A stretch of 64,000 nt of DNA from Enterococcaceae bacterium (GTDB taxonomy: Bacteria; Bacillota; Bacilli; Lactobacillales; Enterococcaceae), in the NCBI GenBank assembly GCA_022649665.1, contig JALCOL010000010.1:1-64000 (forward strand). The letters are read 5' to 3'. Positions within the stretch are counted from its first letter, which is position 1; the number at the start of each line of letters is the position of its first letter. Below the pieces are notes generated by a model. It ran no database searches. It worked only from the letters and a program-made list of their open reading frames with translations, and had not been told where the DNA came from. This document shows positions 19,547-59,783 of this stretch, one piece after another. Position numbers and translations under genes: made by a program.

Positions 19547-19930
19547 ATGTTCGAAAAACTCAAACAAAAAATCCCAACCAATGATCCAGTGGCCTTGCTG
19601 AGCATTTTAGAGGAAGAAAGCATTGAGGATTTCCGCGAGATCTTGTTCTTTTCTGATTGGGACCGCGAAGTCCTCGAAGTCAGCCGGGTACTTCATAGCC
19701 CCAACAGCCTCTCAGTTGCCGAACTTGAATACTTTTTTTCTCGCGGCGGTCTCGTGATCGCCCGTTCGCTCGATGGCGATTTTGTTGCCGGCACACGGAA
19801 TGAGACTTGCGTTTGGACAAAAGATCTTTTTGTACCGCTGAGCGAAAACTATCCGCTGCCGCTGATCGACTTTCTGATCCAATATGAACACGGAAAGATC
19901 GCTTCCCATATTTTGCCAATTATTCGCTGA
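19547..19930 (+). CDS. Small hypothetical protein downstream of the nuclease
   Basis: 127 residues from ATG behind AGGTGG; an in-frame GTG three codons upstream overlaps that site. Acidic, no transmembrane segment. Alternating hydrophobic strands and a Phe/Tyr/Trp-rich middle recall SMI1/KNR4-type small immunity proteins, but I cannot establish this. Its position ten bases after a secreted/anchored nuclease makes a regulator or protector of that nuclease a possible role, purely from context. Ends before a very strong terminator. Confidence 0.7.
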   Translation: MFEKLKQKIPTNDPVALLSILEEESIEDFREILFFSDWDREVLEVSRVLHSPNSLSVAELEYFFSRGGLVIARSLDGDFVAGTRNETCVWTKDLFVPLSENYPLPLIDFLIQYEHGKIASHILPIIR

Positions 19931-20006: not shown

Positions 20007-20165
20007 TTACATATTAAATCCATTGTTGCCGATATAAACCAGATAACTGTCTATCCTTTCCGATGAAAAATGAAAAACATAATATCTGCCCTTCATCGAG
20101 TGTTCAAGTTCGTTTAAACTGAATACCTTTTTTCCATATGAGACTGGCAGAATATTTTTATTTGG
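20007..20165 (-). pseudogene. C-terminal gene scrap between terminator and CRISPR array
   Basis: Minus-strand open frame of 52 codons with normal protein-like composition (reads ...SYGKKVFSLNEL...RYYVFHFSSERIDSYLVYIG...) ending in TAA, but with no start codon: a TAG lies immediately upstream and further protein-like sequence (YRLPSIYEE, then WVAKIKKCLFRR) continues in the same frame behind a second stop up to about 20260. It looks like the decayed 3' end of a lost gene. I do not recognise the family; it is not an obvious cas gene. The rest of 20000-20265 holds nothing else I can support. Confidence 0.45.
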
Positions 20166-20265: not shown

Positions 20266-23200
20266 ATTTCAATCCACGCACTCATGAGGAGTGCGACCAA
20301 AGATGATGTACTGCCGCAATATGTAACATGATTTCAATCCACGCACTCACGAGGAGTGCGACGCGCTTCCGCTGGCGGTCGTTTCTGGGCTTAATGGATT
20401 TCAATCCACGCACTCACGAGGAGTGCGACGACCATAGTACCAATCAAAGGATATTCTTTACCTGAATTTCAATCCACGCACTCACGAGGAGTGCGACGTT
20501 AAGCTGATAAACCATAGACATGGTTTTTCCCATTTCAATCCACGCACTCACGAGGAGTGCGACCAACTGATCGCTTTAGTCCAGCAAAGAGCAAGTATTT
20601 CAATCCACGCACTCACGAGGAGTGCGACTTTATAACAAAGTTCCTTTTATTCATTAAAAGAGATTTCAATCCACGCACTCACGAGGAGTGCGACCGCCCG
20701 GGTGCCCTTCTGTCCCTCTGGCGTATTGCGATTTCAATCCACGCACTCACGAGGAGTGCGACCTCACATGATCCGAGTTGCATTATCTTGCTCGATATTT
20801 CAATCCACGCACTCACGAGGAGTGCGACTTCTTTGCTCATTGCTACTAATTTCGGTTATTTATTTCAATCCACGCACTCACGAGGAGTGCGACATGTTGT
20901 ATGCTTTTGCAGCCTCTTTTACTGATGCATTTCAATCCACGCACTCACGAGGAGTGCGACTCTTGGATCAATTTTACGTTTGACAGATACCAACGATTTC
21001 AATCCACGCACTCACGAGGAGTGCGACATTAAGGAGGCGGCTTAAATGTTTATCACAAATATTTCAATCCACGCACTCACGAGGAGTGCGACTATTTTTT
21101 CCAAGCGAAGCCCAGTCGATTTCACTATTTCAATCCACGCACTCACGAGGAGTGCGACGTTTATTTTGGAGATGGGGCAGCCGTGGTCATATATTTCAAT
21201 CCACGCACTCACGAGGAGTGCGACTCGACCGACCAGGGCCCATCTTTGAGCGTGTCGTATTTCAATCCACGCACTCACGAGGAGTGCGACGAAAGCGGTT
21301 CGCGACACGCTCAACACTTTTCTTATTTCAATCCACGCACTCACGAGGAGTGCGACATTTAATCCGTATAAAGATATGACCGTATCCACAATTTCAATCC
21401 ACGCACTCACGAGGAGTGCGACCGAGCCAAGCGGTCGAGCTGTTTGGCTGACTGTTATTTCAATCCACGCACTCACGAGGAGTGCGACCAGAACACGAGA
21501 GCGCGAGCTTGGACAGATTCTATTTCAATCCACGCACTCACGAGGAGTGCGACGTGCCCAGCAGAATCGCCGCTAAGACCAATATCATATTTCAATCCAC
21601 GCACTCACGAGGAGTGCGACGAAATATTTTGATGAGGCGCGCGATCTGGCGCTTATTTCAATCCACGCACTCACGAGGAGTGCGACGCGACTAACGAGGG
21701 TATCAAGCGGACACGGGGATATATTTCAATCCACGCACTCACGAGGAGTGCGACGCTCGGGCGTCAGATAGCAAAAAACTCGATGGATTATTTCAATCCA
21801 CGCACTCACGAGGAGTGCGACGTTATCTGAGATCCCTTCCGTCGAGCTGTCCGCATTTCAATCCACGCACTCACGAGGAGTGCGACCAGCGGCGAATCTA
21901 AACGCGCTGCTTTATCAGATATTTCAATCCACGCACTCACGAGGAGTGCGACATTCGTTTTACAACGCGGGCCGCGCACTCATGCAATTTCAATCCACGC
22001 ACTCACGAGGAGTGCGACTTGGGCGCAAGGTCGCGCCAACGGTCAAAAGAATTTCAATCCACGCACTCACGAGGAGTGCGACGATCGTTGAGCTTCCACC
22101 GAACGGACTCTTGTTCCGCATTTCAATCCACGCACTCACGAGGAGTGCGACAACCTCTTTTCTGATATAATAAATTTAATGACAATTTCAATCCACGCAC
22201 TCACGAGGAGTGCGACTTTGTTCGGCGCTAAACTGGCGCGGATCCACAAAGCATTTCAATCCACGCACTCACGAGGAGTGCGACTTTGTTCGGCGCTAAA
22301 CTGGCGCGGATCCACAAAGCATTTCAATCCACGCACTCACGAGGAGTGCGACATATCGTCGGAGACGGGATCGTTTATGAAGTCGGTATTTCAATCCACG
22401 CACTCACGAGGAGTGCGACCGTATCGTTTGAACAAATCAATTACGCTGTCCAATTTCAATCCACGCACTCACGAGGAGTGCGACGGATTTGGGAGTACGG
22501 GAAACTGAGGAGGAAGAATTTCAATCCACGCACTCACGAGGAGTGCGACAGTACCAGAGTACGATACGGCAAACCTCTTAACTATTTCAATCCACGCACT
22601 CACGAGGAGTGCGACCAACCTTCTTTGTATCCCTGATCGAACGTACCTATTTCAATCCACGCACTCACGAGGAGTGCGACAGAATCAACTGCTCGAAGGG
22701 TTGCAAGTTCCTAACATTTCAATCCACGCACTCACGAGGAGTGCGACGCCACCCGGCTGTCGCCTTCACCGGCGGCTAATGCATTTCAATCCACGCACTC
22801 ACGAGGAGTGCGACGGCATGCGGCTATCAAACACATAATGGAGCTTCGGATTTCAATCCACGCACTCACGAGGAGTGCGACCTACTGCTAGAATCTGATA
22901 AAAAAGCAAAAAAAATTTCAATCCACGCACTCACGAGGAGTGCGACTGAAATGAATAAACAGGATATTTTAAATCAGATTATTTCAATCCACGCACTCAC
23001 GAGGAGTGCGACGCAGTAAACAGTGCCGATATAGCTGCCGTTCCACATTTCAATCCACGCACTCACGAGGAGTGCGACGATCTGCTGCATTATCCCGCGT
23101 TGGCGGAGGACATTATTTCAATCCACGCACTCACGAGGAGTGCGACTGGCGCTCGCTTGCGACGAAAGCGCTGAAAATGATTTCAATCCACGCACTCACG

Positions 23201-26200
23201 AGGAGTGCGACAAAGTCAAAGTAAAAATAAGAGCAGGCTACTTTATTTCAATCCACGCACTCACGAGGAGTGCGACTATACTCCTTCATTTTTAGACTTT
23301 TGATTATCTGAATTTCAATCCACGCACTCACGAGGAGTGCGACTCTATCAAACTGCAGTTCCGTCCACAGAGTATAATTTCAATCCACGCACTCACGAGG
23401 AGTGCGACAGTAGATCTGCCCATAATATCCGCAATATTTTTGATTTCAATCCACGCACTCACGAGGAGTGCGACGCCAAAAGCAGCCGGACGGTAGATAT
23501 AAAGAGTTATTTCAATCCACGCACTCACGAGGAGTGCGACCAAGCGTTACTTTTTTTCGTTTGTCGCGTTTTTATTTCAATCCACGCACTCACGAGGAGT
23601 GCGACAAAAGTATTTCGATTCAAATCCGCTGCAAATCGATTTCAATCCACGCACTCACGAGGAGTGCGACGCTGTTCGAAGCAGATGGACGGAATTGTGA
23701 GGATATTTCAATCCACGCACTCACGAGGAGTGCGACATAATTGATTTACTATCTTATATTCCAGCAATCGATTTCAATCCACGCACTCACGAGGAGTGCG
23801 ACAGCATACTTCGGAATGGATTTCCCAAATCCTATATTTCAATCCACGCACTCACGAGGAGTGCGACCCGACCGCGACGCCTTCCGGTACCCAGACCGCC
23901 ATTTCAATCCACGCACTCACGAGGAGTGCGACAGGTATCCGGTAATGAGGGATCGTTTGAGCCTTGATTTCAATCCACGCACTCACGAGGAGTGCGACCT
24001 TGGAACGAGAAAAAATCGTTATTGACTATCTAATTTCAATCCACGCACTCACGAGGAGTGCGACCGCGCGCAAGCCGTAGCGCCGTTTTGGGAAGCGGGA
24101 TTTCAATCCACGCACTCACGAGGAGTGCGACTCTAATCATTCTTCGTCCTCCTTACGGTTTTGAATTTCAATCCACGCACTCACGAGGAGTGCGACATCA
24201 CGGACGATCGCAGGGGTGGTGATTTACCGATTTCAATCCACGCACTCACGAGGAGTGCGACCTCGCCGACGATCCCGATCATTGTCCCTTTTCGATTTCA
24301 ATCCACGCACTCACGAGGAGTGCGACCACTGCGTCACTTTTGTAGTTTTTTACTTTATCATTTCAATCCACGCACTCACGAGGAGTGCGACATATTATGC
24401 ATGAGTTGTCTAAATATGTAATATAATTTCAATCCACGCACTCACGAGGAGTGCGACCAAGTCTTTGCAGCACTCGGCGGTGAGACAGCGATTTCAATCC
24501 ACGCACTCACGAGGAGTGCGACTTCATGGTCACCTTACCAGCTGAAATCCGTGCATTATTTCAATCCACGCACTCACGAGGAGTGCGACGCGTATATCGT
24601 AGTCGCTGGTTACTTTGATGATCCATTTCAATCCACGCACTCACGAGGAGTGCGACCGTTGCGGGTATCTGTGCTGATTTTAGCTAACTTAATTTCAATC
24701 CACGCACTCACGAGGAGTGCGACAAAAATGGATCTATCAGGCGTCAAAGATATCTGATTTCAATCCACGCACTCACGAGGAGTGCGACAAACGCGGTGGC
24801 GGGATCGAATTGACTGATGAAGCATTTCAATCCACGCACTCACGAGGAGTGCGACAGCCGCATGGTCCGGTTGTCCGAGATCGCACAAGATATTTCAATC
24901 CACGCACTCACGAGGAGTGCGACTTTTTGGGCGGGCAAGGAGTTTCCTTCCCTTTCTTATTTCAATCCACGCACTCACGAGGAGTGCGACGAGATTCCCG
25001 TTTATTGGTGATTTAGTCAATGATATTTCAATCCACGCACTCACGAGGAGTGCGACTATCCATCGTTCAGTATCGCCGCCAATTGTGGAGGATTTCAATC
25101 CACGCACTCACGAGGAGTGCGACCGTAAGCAGATAAATCGCATTGTTTTACTTGATAATTTCAATCCACGCACTCACGAGGAGTGCGACACTAAGAGGTT
25201 GTGCTTCAACTTCTTTTAGCCAAATTTCAATCCACGCACTCACGAGGAGTGCGACCTAGTTAAGGCTTCGATTCTGTGTAGTGTACGCTCTATTTCAATC
25301 CACGCACTCACGAGGAGTGCGACGTGATGACAACCGTCAGGCAATCTTCACTGCCGATTTCAATCCACGCACTCACGAGGAGTGCGACAATCAGTGTTCA
25401 TTAAAACGACAATGGACAAATTATTTCAATCCACGCACTCACGAGGAGTGCGACGCAAACCCCGGCGATTATATAACGGTGATTGATATTTCAATCCACG
25501 CACTCACGAGGAGTGCGACGTTAGGATCAGTGTTGTATGTGCCAACAGCAACAGATTTCAATCCACGCACTCACGAGGAGTGCGACGCTTGACCCTACTT
25601 CCCTCAAGAGGAATAGTCGTTATTTCAATCCACGCACTCACGAGGAGTGCGACCATAGAGCTGATCGAGCATTGCAACCTGTTCATCAATTTCAATCCAC
25701 GCACTCACGAGGAGTGCGACTCTGCCATTTTGACCCAACCGACTTTCGAAACATAATTTCAATCCACGCACTCACGAGGAGTGCGACAGCACCGAACACA
25801 ATCAGCGCTCCACCTAATGCCAATTTCAATCCACGCACTCACGAGGAGTGCGACGATGGCATATAAAAACAACGAGCCTTGTCTTGTAATTTCAATCCAC
25901 GCACTCACGAGGAGTGCGACGGTCAAGTTCAGCCAACGTTGTGCTGCGTGTTTATTTCAATCCACGCACTCACGAGGAGTGCGACGAGCTTGGCGAGATG
26001 CTGGTGCTAAATATTTATTGATTTCAATCCACGCACTCACGAGGAGTGCGACTATATCTTATCCGTTGGCTTTACCCAGTACGGCATTTCAATCCACGCA
26101 CTCACGAGGAGTGCGACTTAAAAGTGAGTACTGGGGCGACACTAGTTATAAATTTCAATCCACGCACTCACGAGGAGTGCGACGATAACAACAAGACGAT

Positions 26201-26715
26201 TATTGACATCATCCCTATTTCAATCCACGCACTCACGAGGAGTGCGACTGAATCTCTGCTGTGTCAAGGTTAAACTTCTTGCATTTCAATCCACGCACTC
26301 ACGAGGAGTGCGACGTGTGACCAGGGCGCTTAAATCGTTCGGCTTTTTCATTTCAATCCACGCACTCACGAGGAGTGCGACGTTACGAAATCAAGGTTTT
26401 TCGGAACGACCAAATATTTCAATCCACGCACTCACGAGGAGTGCGACGTGATCGACAAGCTCATGCAATACGAGATCGATTTCATTTCAATCCACGCACT
26501 CACGAGGAGTGCGACTGAAAGTTGCCCCTTGGTTTGTTAAAAAGAACTATATTTCAATCCACGCACTCACGAGGAGTGCGACAATCTTACACAGGAATTG
26601 GTAAAAAAACAATTTGATTTCAATCCACGCACTCACGAGGAGTGCGACAAAATGAATCAGGAAGCGATCGAAGACGTGACGATATTTCAATCCACGCACT
26701 CACGAGGAGTGCGAC
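20266..26715 (-). CRISPR. Type I-C CRISPR array, 98 repeats and 97 spacers
   Basis: The 32-base repeat occurs 98 times by hand count, with spacers of about 33-36 bases. In the crRNA sense (minus strand) the repeat begins GTCGCACTCC, forms a 7-bp hairpin (CGCACTC / GAGTGCG, 5-base loop) and ends in the 11-base tail TGGATTGAAAT, the 5' handle made by Cas5d in type I-C systems. All repeats appear identical except the leftmost (20266-20297), which has T for C in the loop-side position (CTCATGAGG); this marks the old, leader-distal end, consistent with leftward transcription from a leader right of 26715. One 36-base spacer is present twice in tandem. No cas gene exists in the window. Confidence 0.98.
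22217..22320 (-). repeat. Tandem duplicated CRISPR spacer-repeat unit
   Basis: The 36-base spacer at 22217-22252 is identical to that at 22285-22320; with the intervening repeat this is a 68-base unit duplication, most simply from recombination or slippage between repeats. Confidence 0.97.
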
Positions 26716-26860
26716 CGTGAATAAGTCGAACTTATCTTCGATTTATCCACAAATACAACTTTTTTGAGTTGAATTTAAAAAAAATATTAAAAATAAATGA
26801 GAAAAATATAATCCAGTTTCATTCACACAGAAAAAATTTGGTGCGAAAGAATGGGATATT
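26716..26860 (-). promoter_or_regulatory. CRISPR leader region
   Basis: AT-rich, gene-free sequence abutting the last (newest) perfect repeat on the side expected for the leader. It has long A/T tracts on about 26760-26815. A precise promoter could not be fixed. An inverted heptamer GTGCGAA (26841-26847) / TTCGCAC (26877-26883), with a related TTCGCAT (26866-26872), lies at its outer edge. Confidence 0.6.
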
Positions 26861-26951
26861 TTATGTTCGCATATGGTTCGCACTTGCATCCAAGTCTTCT
26901 GCTACTGCTTTACCTTCATCATCGCAGATTTCCAATGCTTCCGCAATGTAT
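26861..26951 (-). pseudogene. Possible short ORF or gene remnant beside the CRISPR leader
   Basis: A minus-strand frame ending in TAA (26861-26863) reads LKYIAEALEICDDEG then KAVAEDLDASANHMRT, protein-like and helical. The frame continues upstream into the 3' end of the pentapeptide gene in another register without a good start or ribosome binding site; TTG at 26949-26951 is the only plausible start. Either a tiny gene or the tail of a lost one. Family not recognised. Confidence 0.3.
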
Positions 26952-26967
26952 TTCAACGGTTGAATGA

Positions 26968-27594
26968 TTATTCTCTTATGATGACTCCCAGCCCACGGGC
27001 AATCGTGATAGCTTGTTCCTGATCAACGATCAATCCGCGGAGCAGCTCCATTGATAAGCCGATCTGTTCAAATTCATTGCCGGTCAGATCCAATCCTGCC
27101 AGTTTTGTTTTGAACCAGCTGGACTCGCTCAAATCACTGCCGCTGAACCCAAGATTTTTCCAATCAAGTCCGTAAAAATCGGCACCGGTCAGCCGGCAAT
27201 TTTGGAATTGAACGTCTTTTATTTTTGTGTCGCTGAAGGAAGCTAAATTAGCGATACAGTCGATAAATTGACAGTCGCGCAAAAAACCTTCGGCAAAATT
27301 CACACCGATCAGCTTGCAATCTTTAAAGATCACTCGCTGAAAACTTCCGCGGATCCATTCCAAGTTGGAAAAATCGCAATTTTCAAAAATGACATCGCTG
27401 CACTCGAATAATTCAAGCTCAGTACTGTGCATGATCAGCTTTTTGATGCGGCTGTTTTTCAAGATCATATTTCTTGCAGCGTCGCCGCTCAGCTCGCCCC
27501 CTTCGGAATTGATACTGGAAAATACTTTTTCATTTTCCAAAAAGAAGCTTTCAGCATGAAGTGTTGGTAAATTGGGCGGAACGATTGTTTTCAA
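26968..27594 (-). CDS. Pentapeptide-repeat protein (Qnr/McbG-like fold)
   Basis: 208 residues from a TTG start six bases after AGGAGG; the longer ATG reading would begin inside the upstream hairpin and is rejected. Residues about 50-175 follow the A(D/N)LXX-type five-residue periodicity (FENCDFSNLEW, VIFKDCKLIGVNF, CRLTGADFYGLDW, LAGLDLTGNEF), predicting a right-handed quadrilateral beta-helix, and the C-terminus LRGLIVDQEQAITIARGLG is the usual cap. Such proteins can mimic DNA and protect gyrase, but many have no known role. Downstream of alaA behind a partial terminator. Confidence 0.85.
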   Translation of the reverse strand: MKTIVPPNLPTLHAESFFLENEKVFSSINSEGGELSGDAARNMILKNSRIKKLIMHSTELELFECSDVIFENCDFSNLEWIRGSFQRVIFKDCKLIGVNFAEGFLRDCQFIDCIANLASFSDTKIKDVQFQNCRLTGADFYGLDWKNLGFSGSDLSESSWFKTKLAGLDLTGNEFEQIGLSMELLRGLIVDQEQAITIARGLGVIIRE

Positions 27595-27610
27595 TATATT
27601 TCCTCCTGAA

Positions 27611-27652
27611 AGAGCGGCGCTCCGGAAAAGATCCCAGCGCACCGCTCTTTTT
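27611..27652. terminator. Hairpin between alaA and the pentapeptide gene
   Basis: AGAGCGGCGCT pairs with AGCGCACCGCTCT (one bulge, AC). T run is best on the plus strand and weak on the minus strand, so it may only attenuate transcription from alaA. Confidence 0.6.
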
Positions 27653-54138: not shown

Positions 54139-55593
54139 CTACAGATTGCTTTGCGGGTATCGTGCGGTAACAACTTTCCGGTGTGTATAGAACTCTGCAG
54201 AGTCTTTGCCGTTGCAGTGCAGGTCGCCGAAGAACGAATCCTTATAGCCGGAAAAAGCGAAGAACGCCATTGGTGCCGGTACACCTAAATTGACTCCCAG
54301 CATTCCGGCATCGATATTCTCGCGGAAATAATGGATCGCGCTGGCATTATTCGTGAAGATGCAGGCCCCGTTTGCAAACGGTGAACGGTTCGCGAGCGCG
54401 ACCCCTTCCTGAACGCCTTTGATGCGGATCACCGACAGCACCGGCGCAAACAGCTCGTCTTGCCAAATCGTCATGGCCGGGGTCACGTCTTCAAAAATCG
54501 TCGGTCCGACAAAATAACCCGTTTGCGGAAGATTCTCCCGGCCGTCCAAGACCAGTTTTGCACCTTCTGCGATTCCCTTAGCGATATAATCAAACGTACG
54601 CTCCTGATTTTCTTTCCGGATCACCGGTCCAAGGAAAACTCCTTCCTCGAGCCCGTTGCCGATTTTGATTTCTTTAGCGGCTTCGAGCAGCTTTTCCATG
54701 AATTCATCCGCGATCGTGTCTTCGATCGCCAGTACTGCGCAAGCCATGCAACGTTCACCAGCTGATCCGAATGCTGCCGCGATCACATTTTTGACTGTTT
54801 CAGCGATATCCGCATCTTGCAGGACGATCGTATGGTTTTTCGCGCCCGTCAGTGCTTGCACGCGCTTCAAGTGCTTCGTACCCTCTTTATAGACATATTC
54901 GCCGACCCCTCTGGAACCAACGAACGAGATTGCTTTGACTAAATCATGTGACAAAAGACCATTCACGACATCATGCGCACCGTGGACGATATTCAAGACG
55001 CCATTCGGCAGCCCGGCTTCAGTAAACAATTCGATCAGCCGTTCGGCCAAGAGCGGTGTTTTTTCGGACGGTTTCAAAATAAACGTATTCCCGCAGGCGA
55101 TCGCCATCGGAAACATCCAGCAAGGAACCATCATCGGAAAATTGAATGGCGAGATCCCGCCGATCACCCCGAGCGGATATTTATAGTTGGTCGCTTCCAC
55201 ATCGGTCGCAATGCTCGAAAGCGAATCCCCCATCATCAAGGTCGGTGCGCCAGCCGCAAACTCCACATTTTCGATCCCGCGCTGCACTTCACCTAATGCT
55301 TCTGAAAGACTTTTGCCGTTCTCTTTGGTGATCAACGTTGCCAACTCTTTCTTATACTTTATGAGTAACTGTTGATAGTTGAACAAAATCCTTGCCCGCT
55401 TTGGAACTGGAACACGGCTCCATGTTTCAAATGCGCGCTGTGCGACTTCGACGGCACCATCCAGGTCCTCTTTTGTCGAAAGCGGTACTTCGCATAGTAC
55501 CTCTTCTGTTGCCGGATTATAAACGGTTTCATATTGAGCGGTCGTACTGGCGATCCATTGACCGTCAATATAATTCTTTAATCTTCTGGTCAT
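54139..55593 (-). CDS. iolA: (Methyl)malonate-semialdehyde dehydrogenase (acylating)
   Basis: 484 residues, the MmsA family. [15 protein letters not shown], the NAD loop [12 protein letters not shown] (about 226) and the catalytic Cys in [14 protein letters not shown] (about 285, RCMA typical of MmsA). Oxidises malonate semialdehyde with CoA to acetyl-CoA and CO2, the last step of inositol breakdown. First gene of the operon; AGGAGGAG ribosome binding site. Confidence 0.95.
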
Positions 55594-55610
55594 TCATGCT
55601 CCTCCTCATT

Positions 55611-55624
55611 CGTAAGTGCTTACA
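55611..55624. promoter_or_regulatory. cre-like site at the iolA promoter
   Basis: Minus-strand TGTAAGCACTTACG overlaps the expected iolA transcription start. It fits the CcpA cre pattern at most positions but has A for G in the central CG. Confidence 0.6.
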
Positions 55625-55629
55625 AGAGT

Positions 55630-55658
55630 ATAGTACTCGAATCATTTCTGCTCGTCAA
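55630..55658 (-). promoter_or_regulatory. iolA operon promoter
   Basis: Minus strand -35 TTGACG (55653-55658), 17-base spacer, -10 TACTAT (55630-55635). Confidence 0.8.
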
Positions 55659-55734
55659 TACTTTTTTGGCATATATTGAGTTATAATTCCAAAAGTTAAT
55701 CATTAAAGGTTCATATATCTATTTTATAAATCAC

Positions 55735-55744
55735 AATATTATCA
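55735..55744 (-). promoter_or_regulatory. Shared iol motif TGATAATATT, copy at iolA/iolR
   Basis: Minus-strand TGATAATATT in the iolA-iolR intergenic region; the same decamer occurs twice in the other iol control region (62320-62329 and 62371-62380). Candidate IolR operator. Confidence 0.5.
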
Positions 55745-55822
55745 GCTTGTACTAAGATTACTAGTTATGTTATAATATTTTTATGCAAGTTTACCTTAAA
55801 AAATCATGAAAGAGAGAGTTAT

Positions 55823-56587
55823 ATGAAATCAAAAAGAATCGATGATATTGGAGAATTAGTGCAAGAAAAGGGAAATGTCTCCATTAAAGAACTTTGTGAA
55901 ATATTCGGTGTTTCTAAAAATACGATCCGCCGCGATATCGATGAACTTGTTCGGAATGGTGCAGTAGAAAAAGTATATGGCGGGATCCGTGCCATAAAGA
56001 ACCCATTGCTTCCTTTTGAACAGCGCCATGATCAGCAGCATCTCCAAAAGAAAAAGATCGGTGAAGTGGCCAGTACCTTTATTGAAGACGATGACATCAT
56101 CTTCATCGATTCCGGAACGACCACTTCGCAAATCATGGACCACGTGCGCGATGATATCCGCATCACGATCCTGACCAACAATCTTGATGTCATCAATCAA
56201 TGTACGAACAAACCAAATGTCACCCTTTTTGTGATGGGTTCGCTCTATAAGCAGGAAACCCGTTCATTCGTCGACATGGACACCAATTTGCAAAATGTGA
56301 ATTTTAATATCAACAAAGCTTTTATCGCTGCGACCGGTGTCTCGATCGCCAACGGTTTGACTAATTCCGATCCGCTGGAGTATGAGATCAAAAAACTAAT
56401 CTGCAGCAAAACAGATAATCTATTCCTTTTGGTCGATGAATCTAAATTTGGCAAGTCCACGCTGCTTACATATTGCCCGCTGGAAAAAATATCAGTATTG
56501 ATCACTTCGGGAAATGTTCCCCGCGACATTCGCGAATTTCTGGAAGAGCATGAAGCAGACATTATGCAAGTCGATGCACCAAAATAA
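55823..56587 (+). CDS. iolR: IolR, DeoR-family regulator of inositol genes
   Basis: 254 residues. N-terminal DeoR helix-turn-helix (GNVSIKELCEIFGVSKNTIR, about 17-37) and a C-terminal sugar-isomerase-like effector domain (DDIIFIDSGTTTSQIMDHV, then LFLLVDESKFGKSTL). Divergent from iolA and flanked by two iol operons, matching IolR, whose inducer in Bacillus is a phosphorylated intermediate made by IolC. A probable -10 TATAAT lies at about 55770. Ends at a bidirectional terminator. Confidence 0.9.
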   Translation: MKSKRIDDIGELVQEKGNVSIKELCEIFGVSKNTIRRDIDELVRNGAVEKVYGGIRAIKNPLLPFEQRHDQQHLQKKKIGEVASTFIEDDDIIFIDSGTTTSQIMDHVRDDIRITILTNNLDVINQCTNKPNVTLFVMGSLYKQETRSFVDMDTNLQNVNFNINKAFIAATGVSIANGLTNSDPLEYEIKKLICSKTDNLFLLVDESKFGKSTLLTYCPLEKISVLITSGNVPRDIREFLEEHEADIMQVDAPK

Positions 56588-56599
56588 CTTTTACCGCCA

Positions 56600-56643
56600 A
56601 AGAGCCTGCGAAAACTCAGAATCGTTTTCGCAGGCTCTTCTTT
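56600..56643. terminator. Bidirectional terminator between iolR and iolG
   Basis: AAGAGCCTGCGAAAA pairs with TTTTCGCAGGCTCTT, 10-base loop. Confidence 0.93.
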
Positions 56644-56648
56644 ATGCG

Positions 56649-57674
56649 CTATTCCGTGTAAAATGCCGGTTTTGCATCGATCGAAATTGCTTCCGTCTTA
56701 CCGCTTTCTTGTGATTTGACCGTTGCATCACTTGCGACCGCTGCTAAATAACCATCCCAAGTCGATGGTCCAGCCGGGGCTTTCCCCGCATTCAAGCGGT
56801 CAAAGAAATCTTGGAACTCGACATCATAGGCCGCTTCAAAGCGCGGTTTCCAATCATAGACGATTTCCGTACTGTATTTGCCAGCTTTGCGCATTGATAC
56901 CGCCGCCGGACTTGGCAGCTCGATCATTCCCAGCTCTCCAGTGATGTCGCAATGGATATCGTAACCATATTGGCAATTCACAAAGACTTCGACTACACAG
57001 ACGACCCCTTTTTTCGTTTGAAAGATCGCGATTTGCGGATCCTTCAAGTTGCCGTTGTCCTGCGTTGCCAAACCAGATTTTTCAGGGAAATACACTTTGA
57101 CATCTTGATAGTCGTCATCCAAAAGCCAGCGCATGATCTCGATCTCATGGATCAATGTTTCAAAAACAGCACGCGCAGTCTTGTAGTCAGCGACTTGCGT
57201 TGCGTTGTAGTGCCGGCAATGAAGCATCAGCGGCCGGCCGATCTCGCCTTTGTCGATGATTTCTTTTAATTCTTGATAGCCGCTGTCATAGCGGCGCATG
57301 AAGCCGACTTGGACCATTTTTTTCTGGCTCCGCTCTTCAGCTTCCATGATCCTTTGGCAGTCCGCCGCACTGATCGCAAGCGGCTTTTCAACAAATACAT
57401 ATTTCCCAGCATCGAGTGCAGCAACCGCCACATCGGCATGCACTTCATTTGAAGCTGTGATCACGACGACTTCGACTTCCGGATCGTTGATCAGTTCATG
57501 ATAATCAGCATAGTCGCGCGCTTTGATCTTGAATTTATCCAATGCTTTCTGCGCCTTGCCTGGAACGATATCGCAAACAGCGACAACGTCTGCTCCAGCG
57601 ATCGCGTTTGCGATCCTTCTTAGATGATCTTCTCCGATAAAACCGATCCCGACGATCCCAACTTTTTTGACCAT
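56649..57674 (-). CDS. iolG: myo-Inositol 2-dehydrogenase
   Basis: 341 residues from ATG behind GGAGGGAAAA. Gfo/Idh/MocA fold: KVGIVGIGFIGEDHLRRI, VEKPLAIS (catalytic Lys about 97), VQVGFMRRYDSGYQELKE, THE-like LIHEIEIMRWLLDDDYQ (about 175), VNCQYGYDIHCDI and the C-terminal KPAFY, all closely matching Bacillus IolG, more than the other four paralogues do. Oxidises myo-inositol to scyllo-inosose with NAD. Last gene of the second leftward operon. Confidence 0.93.
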   Translation of the reverse strand: MVKKVGIVGIGFIGEDHLRRIANAIAGADVVAVCDIVPGKAQKALDKFKIKARDYADYHELINDPEVEVVVITASNEVHADVAVAALDAGKYVFVEKPLAISAADCQRIMEAEERSQKKMVQVGFMRRYDSGYQELKEIIDKGEIGRPLMLHCRHYNATQVADYKTARAVFETLIHEIEIMRWLLDDDYQDVKVYFPEKSGLATQDNGNLKDPQIAIFQTKKGVVCVVEVFVNCQYGYDIHCDITGELGMIELPSPAAVSMRKAGKYSTEIVYDWKPRFEAAYDVEFQDFFDRLNAGKAPAGPSTWDGYLAAVASDATVKSQESGKTEAISIDAKPAFYTE

Positions 57675-57724
57675 GATTTTTCCCTCCAATGATTTATTTG
57701 ATACGACGATCATTCTGTAAGCGG

Positions 57725-58750
57725 CTAGATTTTTGGATAGGTCGGATCGACCGCGACCGGCTGCCCGGTTTCCAATGATTTTTGTGCCGCAACTGCGACC
57801 CGCTGCGCCATGATGACATCGATCCCGGTCGCAAGCAGTTCGCGCTCTTCCAGCAAAGCATGGATGAAAAACTGCATTTCTGCAATGTAAGCTTCGCGGT
57901 AACGCTCGATAAAGCTTGGCAGCGGATTTTTCCTTTTTTCGCTTTTATTTCCATAATACTCGACCGCCGATTCGCTCACATTTTCTGCTTTCAAAAGTCC
58001 TTCAGAGCCGAAAACTTCAACTCTTTGATCATAACCATAAACCGCACGCCGGCTGTTATCGATCAAGGCGAACCCGCCGTTTTCAAATTGCAGTACGATC
58101 GCAAGCGTATCGACATCATTGATCTCAGTCAACGTCGGATCGATCAGCGTCCCGCCTCTGGCATATACTTCGGTGATGTTGCTGCCCATCATATAGCGCG
58201 CCATATCGAAATCATGCATCGTAAAGTCAAACAGCAGTCCGCCGATCCGCTTGATCAGCTCATGCGGCAAAAGGTCCGGATCGCGTGAAGTGATCTTCAC
58301 AAGCTGCGGCTTGCCGATCGCACCGGCGCGGACATTTTCATAGATCGCGTGGAATTGCCGGTCGATTCGGCGATTGAAGCCGATCTGCATTTTTACCTCA
58401 TGATCTTTGACCGCCCGCAACACCCGCAAGCTGGCTTCTTCCGCCAGGTCCATGCTCAGCGGCTTTTCGCAAAAAATATGTTTTCCAGCCTGTGCTGCTG
58501 CGATCGCGATCTCTTCATGAGTATCCGTCGAAGTAAAAATAAAGACGGCTTCGATTTCCTGGTTTGCCAATACTTCTTGATAATCTTGATAAAGTTCCGT
58601 GATCCCCAGGGTATTTAAATTTTCGCGAGCGTCCTCAATAAAAAGATCCGCCACACAAACAACTTCAACTTCGCGGATCGTCTGCAGATTTTCGATATGC
58701 ATCTGCCCGACCCGCCCGGCGCCAATGACGCCGCACTTCAATTTCTTCAT
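57725..58750 (-). CDS. Gfo/Idh-family inositol dehydrogenase paralogue
   Basis: 341 residues from ATG behind GGAGTGGAAAG. NAD-binding CGVIGAGRVGQMHIENL, CEKPLSMD with the catalytic Lys (about 94), IGFNRRIDRQFHAIYE, FDFTMHDFDMARYMMGS (about 175) and DNSRRAVYGYDQRVEVFGSE. Clearly related to the proteins at 61197 and 62509 by these shared blocks. Lactobacilli carry several inositol dehydrogenases with differing stereoisomer preference (myo-, scyllo-, D-chiro-); which one this is cannot be read from sequence. Confidence 0.85.
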   Translation of the reverse strand: MKKLKCGVIGAGRVGQMHIENLQTIREVEVVCVADLFIEDARENLNTLGITELYQDYQEVLANQEIEAVFIFTSTDTHEEIAIAAAQAGKHIFCEKPLSMDLAEEASLRVLRAVKDHEVKMQIGFNRRIDRQFHAIYENVRAGAIGKPQLVKITSRDPDLLPHELIKRIGGLLFDFTMHDFDMARYMMGSNITEVYARGGTLIDPTLTEINDVDTLAIVLQFENGGFALIDNSRRAVYGYDQRVEVFGSEGLLKAENVSESAVEYYGNKSEKRKNPLPSFIERYREAYIAEMQFFIHALLEERELLATGIDVIMAQRVAVAAQKSLETGQPVAVDPTYPKI

Positions 58751-58760
58751 CTTTCCACTC

Positions 58761-59783
58761 CTATAACACAATATCGATCACTTGTCCGGTTTCGGCAGAT
58801 TCTTTGCATGCTTTGGCAATTTGCAAAGCTTTCACGCCATCTTCGACCGAAATATCGGACTGCCGATCGTTTTTGACATTTTCAATAAAATCTTTTAATT
58901 CCGTAATGAATGCTTCCGTAAAGCGTTCTGAAAAACTCTGCATCGCTGGCCGCACGACCCCGGCATCAGTAAACAAAGTGACGAAATCCTTTTCCGGTTC
59001 TTGTGCGATCCGGATCCAGCCGTTTGACCCCATGATCTCCATTTCGACTTGATTGCCATGGGCCGCATGCCGCCCGCCGATCAAAGTCGCCGCCATATTG
59101 TTTTCAAAGCGCAGATTGGCTACCCCGGTTTCAAATTCGTTGATCGCTTCAAGCTCGGGTGCTGCGATATTGTTTCCGATCGACCACGTTTGGACCGGAT
59201 CGCTTCCAGTATACCAGCGGATCAGATCGATATCATGGATGCACATATCCACAAAGATCCCGCCGCTGTCGTTATCAGTCGCAAATTTTGTAAAGCTCTC
59301 CATCCCCGAAATCGGATCGATCCCGTAAGCACGAATATAAATGATCTCGCCGATCCCGCCCGCATCGATGATCTCCTTGGCGTGGCGGTAAGAGGCATCG
59401 AAACGCCGCATAAAGCCTAGCTGGAAGACTTGCTTCGGATGTTCTTGGATTTGACGGCTCATTTCAGCAACTTCATCCATCTCCAAGCCCAGCGGTTTTT
59501 CACAAAAGACATGTTTGCCGGCTTTCAAAGCATACGCCGTCATCTCCGGATGAAATCCTGTTGGAGCGACGATCGCGACCGCATCGATCTCTTCAGCGTC
59601 GATCATTTTTTTGTAGTCGGTGTATGTTTCAACCCCAAAATTTTCTTTCGCATACGATAGCTGTTCTTGATCAAGAGCGCAGACTGCTTTGACATCTGCA
59701 TCCCCGATCAAATTGACCAAGTGATCCGTGTGGACCATCCCTAAACGTCCCAGACCGATCACCGCGATTTTTACTTTTTCCAT
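58761..59783 (-). CDS. Gfo/Idh-family dehydrogenase, divergent paralogue
   Basis: 340 residues, ATG behind GAGGAGG. IAVIGLGRLGMVHTDHL, CEKPLGLE (catalytic Lys about 97), LGFMRRFDASYRHAKE and VDMCIHDIDLIRWYTGSDP (about 180). It lacks the NSRxAVYGYD block of the 57725/61197/62509 group and has GGRHAAHGNQVEMEIMG instead, so it forms a separate branch, probably with another cyclitol or sugar substrate. Ten bases upstream of the next gene, same operon. Confidence 0.85.
   Translation of the reverse strand: MEKVKIAVIGLGRLGMVHTDHLVNLIGDADVKAVCALDQEQLSYAKENFGVETYTDYKKMIDAEEIDAVAIVAPTGFHPEMTAYALKAGKHVFCEKPLGLEMDEVAEMSRQIQEHPKQVFQLGFMRRFDASYRHAKEIIDAGGIGEIIYIRAYGIDPISGMESFTKFATDNDSGGIFVDMCIHDIDLIRWYTGSDPVQTWSIGNNIAAPELEAINEFETGVANLRFENNMAATLIGGRHAAHGNQVEMEIMGSNGWIRIAQEPEKDFVTLFTDAGVVRPAMQSFSERFTEAFITELKDFIENVKNDRQSDISVEDGVKALQIAKACKESAETGQVIDIVL

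Follow-up and report, generated by a model that had tools for sequence, protein, structure and literature searches.

The type I-C CRISPR array at positions 20266-26715 (minus strand) of the window, the 64,000-nucleotide stretch of DNA analysed here, is most likely an ordinary working array that is served from afar. It belongs to the type I-C system of its genome, and we judge it highly probable (about 0.87) that the array is live and is served in trans by a complete type I-C operon on another contig, C1. The sequence-only reading had proposed that cas genes either act in trans from elsewhere or were lost very recently. The first proposal is supported by the intact operon on C1, by the homology between the leaders of the two arrays, by the TTC PAM and by the phage and IS targets that the recent spacers of both arrays share. 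The second is unneeded; nothing was found in its support, and a tblastn search across 84 kb of the contig detected no cas remnant.

Distant arrays are well documented, and the present array is a further case of them. Isolated arrays have been described (PMC5294841), it is not uncommon for long clean arrays to lie far from cas genes (PMC12814883; PMC5294841), and in a survey of 82,981 arrays those with the same repeat within a genome were found to gain spacers comparably whatever their distance from cas (PMC12814883). Like the distant arrays served in trans that these studies describe, the array examined here is clean, lies more than 10 kb from cas genes and has one compatible operon in its genome. 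Unlike them, it carries a repeat that is near-identical rather than identical to that of the cas-adjacent array, and it is the longer of the two (98 repeats compared with 66). The imperfect identity of the two repeats speaks against function in trans, and divergent repeats are more frequent among distant arrays (PMC12814883). Two arrays of slightly different repeat are here apparently kept up to date against the same phages by a single type I-C operon, which makes the genome a clean natural example of such sharing. A local window is insufficient for calling such an array orphaned.

The distant array and its flanks

The array comprises 98 repeats of 32 bp and 97 spacers. All copies of the repeat except one are identical, with the sequence GTCGCACTCCTCGTGAGTGCGTGGATTGAAAT, and the single mismatched copy (CTCATG for CTCGTG; 20266-20297, minus strand) lies at the trailer end. 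Because this sole mismatch is at one end and an AT-rich leader begins at the other, to the right from position 26716, the array reads leftward. The initial description of 98 near-perfect repeats with a clear orientation and an intact-looking leader side is thus confirmed. The repeat did not occur in any of 100 shuffles of the window, and it conforms to the type I-C consensus, with a 7-bp stem and the ATTGAAAT end. The spacers span 32-37 nt and 96 of them are distinct; the remaining pair, o67 and o68 (22217-22320, minus strand; spacers are counted from the leader), is a tandem duplicate in which one repeat-spacer unit with a 36-nt spacer has been doubled.

The genes on either side of the array are ordinary. 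To the left are nrdR, dnaB, dnaI and, next to the trailer, a gene for a DNA/RNA non-specific endonuclease-like protein (PF13930; 18893-19537, plus strand). On the leader side a gene for a pentapeptide-repeat protein (26968-27642, minus strand) is followed by those for an aminotransferase, an amylase-like protein, Tex and a fatty-acid operon. Neither immediate neighbour is related to cas, and the cas3-5-8c-7-4-1-2 genes are missing both from the window and from the next 20 kb of the contig (bases 64001-84000). When 106 cas open reading frames from 17 type I-C loci and seven from C1 were used as tblastn queries, neither a cas gene nor a recognisable remnant was detected in these 84 kb; the best match (E 0.011) was judged to be due to chance. 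An adjoining cas operon is usual for a type I-C locus, yet it is no defining feature of the array itself. The claim that there are no cas genes in 64 kb stands for the window and fails for the genome, which carries an intact operon on C1.

The order of the flanking genes was not conserved among nine family relatives with which an empty-site comparison was attempted. Fragments on both sides of the array, from the space separating the pentapeptide gene from the leader and from that separating the trailer from position 19930, gave no match to PHROGs, and for this reason no mobile-element boundary was drawn beside the array. Two short coding-like stretches without a family match were seen in the same intervals, one on the leader side (26884-26967; IIQPLKYIAEALEICDDEGKAVAEDLDA), which is possibly a remnant, and one past the trailer (20007-20165; SLSYGKKVFSLNELEHSMKGRYYVFHFSSERIDSYLVYIGNNGFNM), which is possibly a gene remnant.

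We also considered that the array and its flanks might have been misjoined, or that the whole contig might be contamination from another organism. Repeats classically give rise to mis-joins, and the assembly is split into 26 contigs, but the array is internal to a contig of 89,483 bp and nearly all of its spacers are unique. In tetranucleotide composition the right flank resembles both the left flank (correlation 0.986) and DNA downstream of the C1 locus (0.981), compared with 0.51-0.61 for relatives, and the contamination estimate is 0.25%. An artefact of this kind is accordingly very improbable.

An intact type I-C operon elsewhere in the genome

The assembly (2.37 Mb, 95% complete) holds three CRISPR-Cas systems in a genome of approximately 2.4 Mb. 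On C1, a complete type I-C operon in the order cas3-cas5c-cas8c-cas7-cas4-cas1c-cas2 lies directly before an array of 66 near-identical repeats at 55246-59567. Its reading frames are open throughout, with no internal stops in any of the operon genes, and encode proteins of 808, 242, 629, 323, 217, 370 and 96 amino acids respectively. Each of them exceeds the NCBIfam cut-off of its cas family; for Cas3 this holds for the core and the HD domains. The Cas8c of this operon is the only one in the 95%-complete assembly. The other two Cas1 genes of the genome are accounted for by a type I-B locus (C8:16000-35999) and a type II-A locus (C12:56500-76499), each of which has its own array with different repeats. 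The distant array is thus not a true orphan, as compatible cas genes of the same subtype are present in complete form elsewhere in the genome. The sequence-only reading had suggested searching the genome for type I-C cas genes and for another array of the same repeat. The search yielded the complete operon and, directly beside it, an array whose repeat proved to be near-identical, with three differences. A second type I-C operon might lie in the small part of the genome that the 26 contigs do not cover.

The differences between the two repeats fall at positions 8, 11 and 16 of 32. Positions 8 and 16 are paired in the stem and have changed jointly, in a compensatory replacement of U-A by C-G, and position 11 is a loop base. 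Both repeat RNAs fold alike into a 7-bp stem, a 5-nt loop and an 11-nt tail, TGGATTGAAAT. In type I-C systems, as is well established, Cas5 cleaves the repeat at the foot of this stem, so that an 11-nt handle remains. Cas5c from the C1 operon would be expected to cut the transcripts of both arrays at the same hairpin to give the same 5′ handle, and the Cas5-Cas8c-Cas7 complex together with Cas3 could then use crRNAs from either array.

The repeat of the distant array is found next to type I-C cas genes in Trichococcus, Exiguobacterium, Bacillus, Neobacillus, Pullulanibacillus and a Defluviitaleaceae MAG. The same-repeat arrays of Trichococcus, Exiguobacterium, Bacillus renqingensis, Neobacillus vireti and Pullulanibacillus resemble the present one in repeat, in spacer length and in a 43-bp leader element described below. 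They differ from it in that they adjoin cas genes, whereas the type I-C cas genes of the present genome lie next to its other type I-C array, on a different contig. It is conceivable, and in our estimate only somewhat short of an even chance, that the array is left over from another type I-C locus, distinct from that on C1 and either native or acquired, that lost its cas genes, and that the C1 system adopted it afterwards. Such an origin would fit a repeat that is identical to those of complete type I-C loci in other genera and unlike that of C1, and also a leader that begins with the inverted repeat normally following the cas2 stop codon. It fits less well with the lack of a cas remnant on either side and with a leader that is closest to that of C1 rather than to those of the loci with the identical repeat; duplication of a leader and array within the genome, without cas genes, is an equally possible origin. 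This possibility concerns the origin of the array and is compatible with its present function in trans.

Targets shared by the two arrays

The first phage matches to the arrays were multiple matches to Lacticaseibacillus phage R3.3 (Coetzeevirus) and to an unverified wastewater clone named 'Listeria phage LM 4-11-1', which, by reading of its proteins, encodes a tnpA and tnpB pair of the IS200/IS605 type. The target set was widened with relatives from viral contigs to a total of 2.0 Mb, and matches were accepted at a threshold that was reached by two of 162 shuffled spacers. Fifteen of the 97 spacers in the distant array match this set, 11 of them to Coetzeevirus-like phages and four (o10, o15, o17 and o23) to the IS200/IS605 element. 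All 15 lie in the leader-proximal block o7-o32 (24590-26282, minus strand), although older spacers had less chance of matching because the phage set was gathered from matches to this array. A 5′ TTC, a known type I-C PAM (PMC8406640), is present at the best match of nine of the 15 spacers (background 0.020; p = 2e-12).

In the C1 array, nine of 65 spacers match the same set, five of them with TTC. Spacers n1, n3, n4, n5 and n6 match the Coetzeevirus-like group, as do those of the distant array, and n8 targets the same kind of IS200/IS605 tnpB element. The newer sections of both arrays thus hold fragments taken from the same parasites with the type I-C PAM, as predicted if one adaptation machinery is shared. 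In the proposed mechanism, Cas4-Cas1-Cas2 of the C1 operon would insert TTC-flanked fragments of phage and IS DNA at both leaders. As the two arrays have no spacer in common, we infer such cross-use from the shared targets, PAM and leader; transcription, processing and interference at the distant array are likewise inferred. Spacers against one phage group follow each other densely, a pattern like that of primed adaptation, which would also need the interference proteins, and this process may have contributed.

These observations bear on whether the array could be a recently orphaned, inert relic whose repeats are clean only because cas loss was recent, and which is neither updated nor used. 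The absence of nearby cas genes would agree with this view. However, the genome has an intact matching type I-C operon, the leader is complete, and the newest identified spacers share a phage group and an IS element with the newest spacers of the cas-adjacent array. The degenerate repeats, lost leader and want of recent shared targets that characterize a decayed relic are not seen, and we regard an inert array as improbable.

A role outside defence, in gene regulation or self-targeting, has been proposed for some isolated arrays (PMC5294841). Here the targets identified are phages and an IS element, and a search of the genome with the whole array, which would have revealed self-targeting, returned only the two arrays; we consider such a role scarcely credible for this array. 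TnpB of the targeted IS200/IS605 element had no match in the genome in a search run without a positive control. At the far end of the contig that carries the distant array, C10:87130-87735 shows weak similarity (26% identity) to the protein that R3.3 encodes at 24366-25658, which is terminase-like by reading, and this region, perhaps part of a prophage, has no matches from the spacers of the array.

An inverted repeat in type I-C leaders

The leader of the distant array (26716-26883, minus strand), a functional-looking sequence at the newest end, aligns over approximately 150 bp with the C1 leader at 73% identity, the top score among the leaders compared. No promoter or terminator was found in a scan of the leader. 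At its distal end, 125 bp from the first repeat, is a 43-bp inverted-repeat element (GTGCGAA ... ACAT ... TTCGCAC; 26841-26883, minus strand), whose counterpart on C1 is 42 bp long. Elements with the consensus GTGCGRA-N5-AG-N3-ACAT-N16-TYCGCAC are present in more than 20 type I-C leaders, including those of both arrays in this genome, and were absent from 1.0 Mb of other sequence. The element is located at the cas2 end of the leader independently of the repeat sequence, and in the cas-adjacent type I-C loci examined it directly follows the cas2 stop codon.

The distance from this inverted repeat to the first CRISPR repeat takes values of 86, 95, 104, 114-116, 125-126, 136 and 146 bp, with a shift of one in those relatives whose repeats are 33 bp. 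Clustering is strongest near a 10-bp period (resultant 0.94 for 20 loci and 0.91 for eight distinct values), a period that was read off post hoc from mutually related loci with kinship ignored. Helix-phased leader motifs are known for some subtypes, and phased leader motifs for CRISPR adaptation were reportedly described by Santiago-Frangos et al. in Current Biology in 2021; the element found here likewise stands at a helically phased distance from the first repeat. We tentatively suggest that the conserved inverted repeat could serve to dock the Cas4-Cas1-Cas2 integrase or a DNA-bending protein, and that its retention might let one operon feed a distant array whose repeat has drifted. This element, whose distances from the first repeat differ by roughly one DNA turn at a time, is the most interesting by-product of the analysis, and in bacteria of this group it could be tested as a recruiting site for the adaptation machinery. 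Across genera of the family, type I-C repeats vary widely (GTCTAGCTC..., GTCGCTCC... and GTCTCACC..., for example) and the leader element stays similar.
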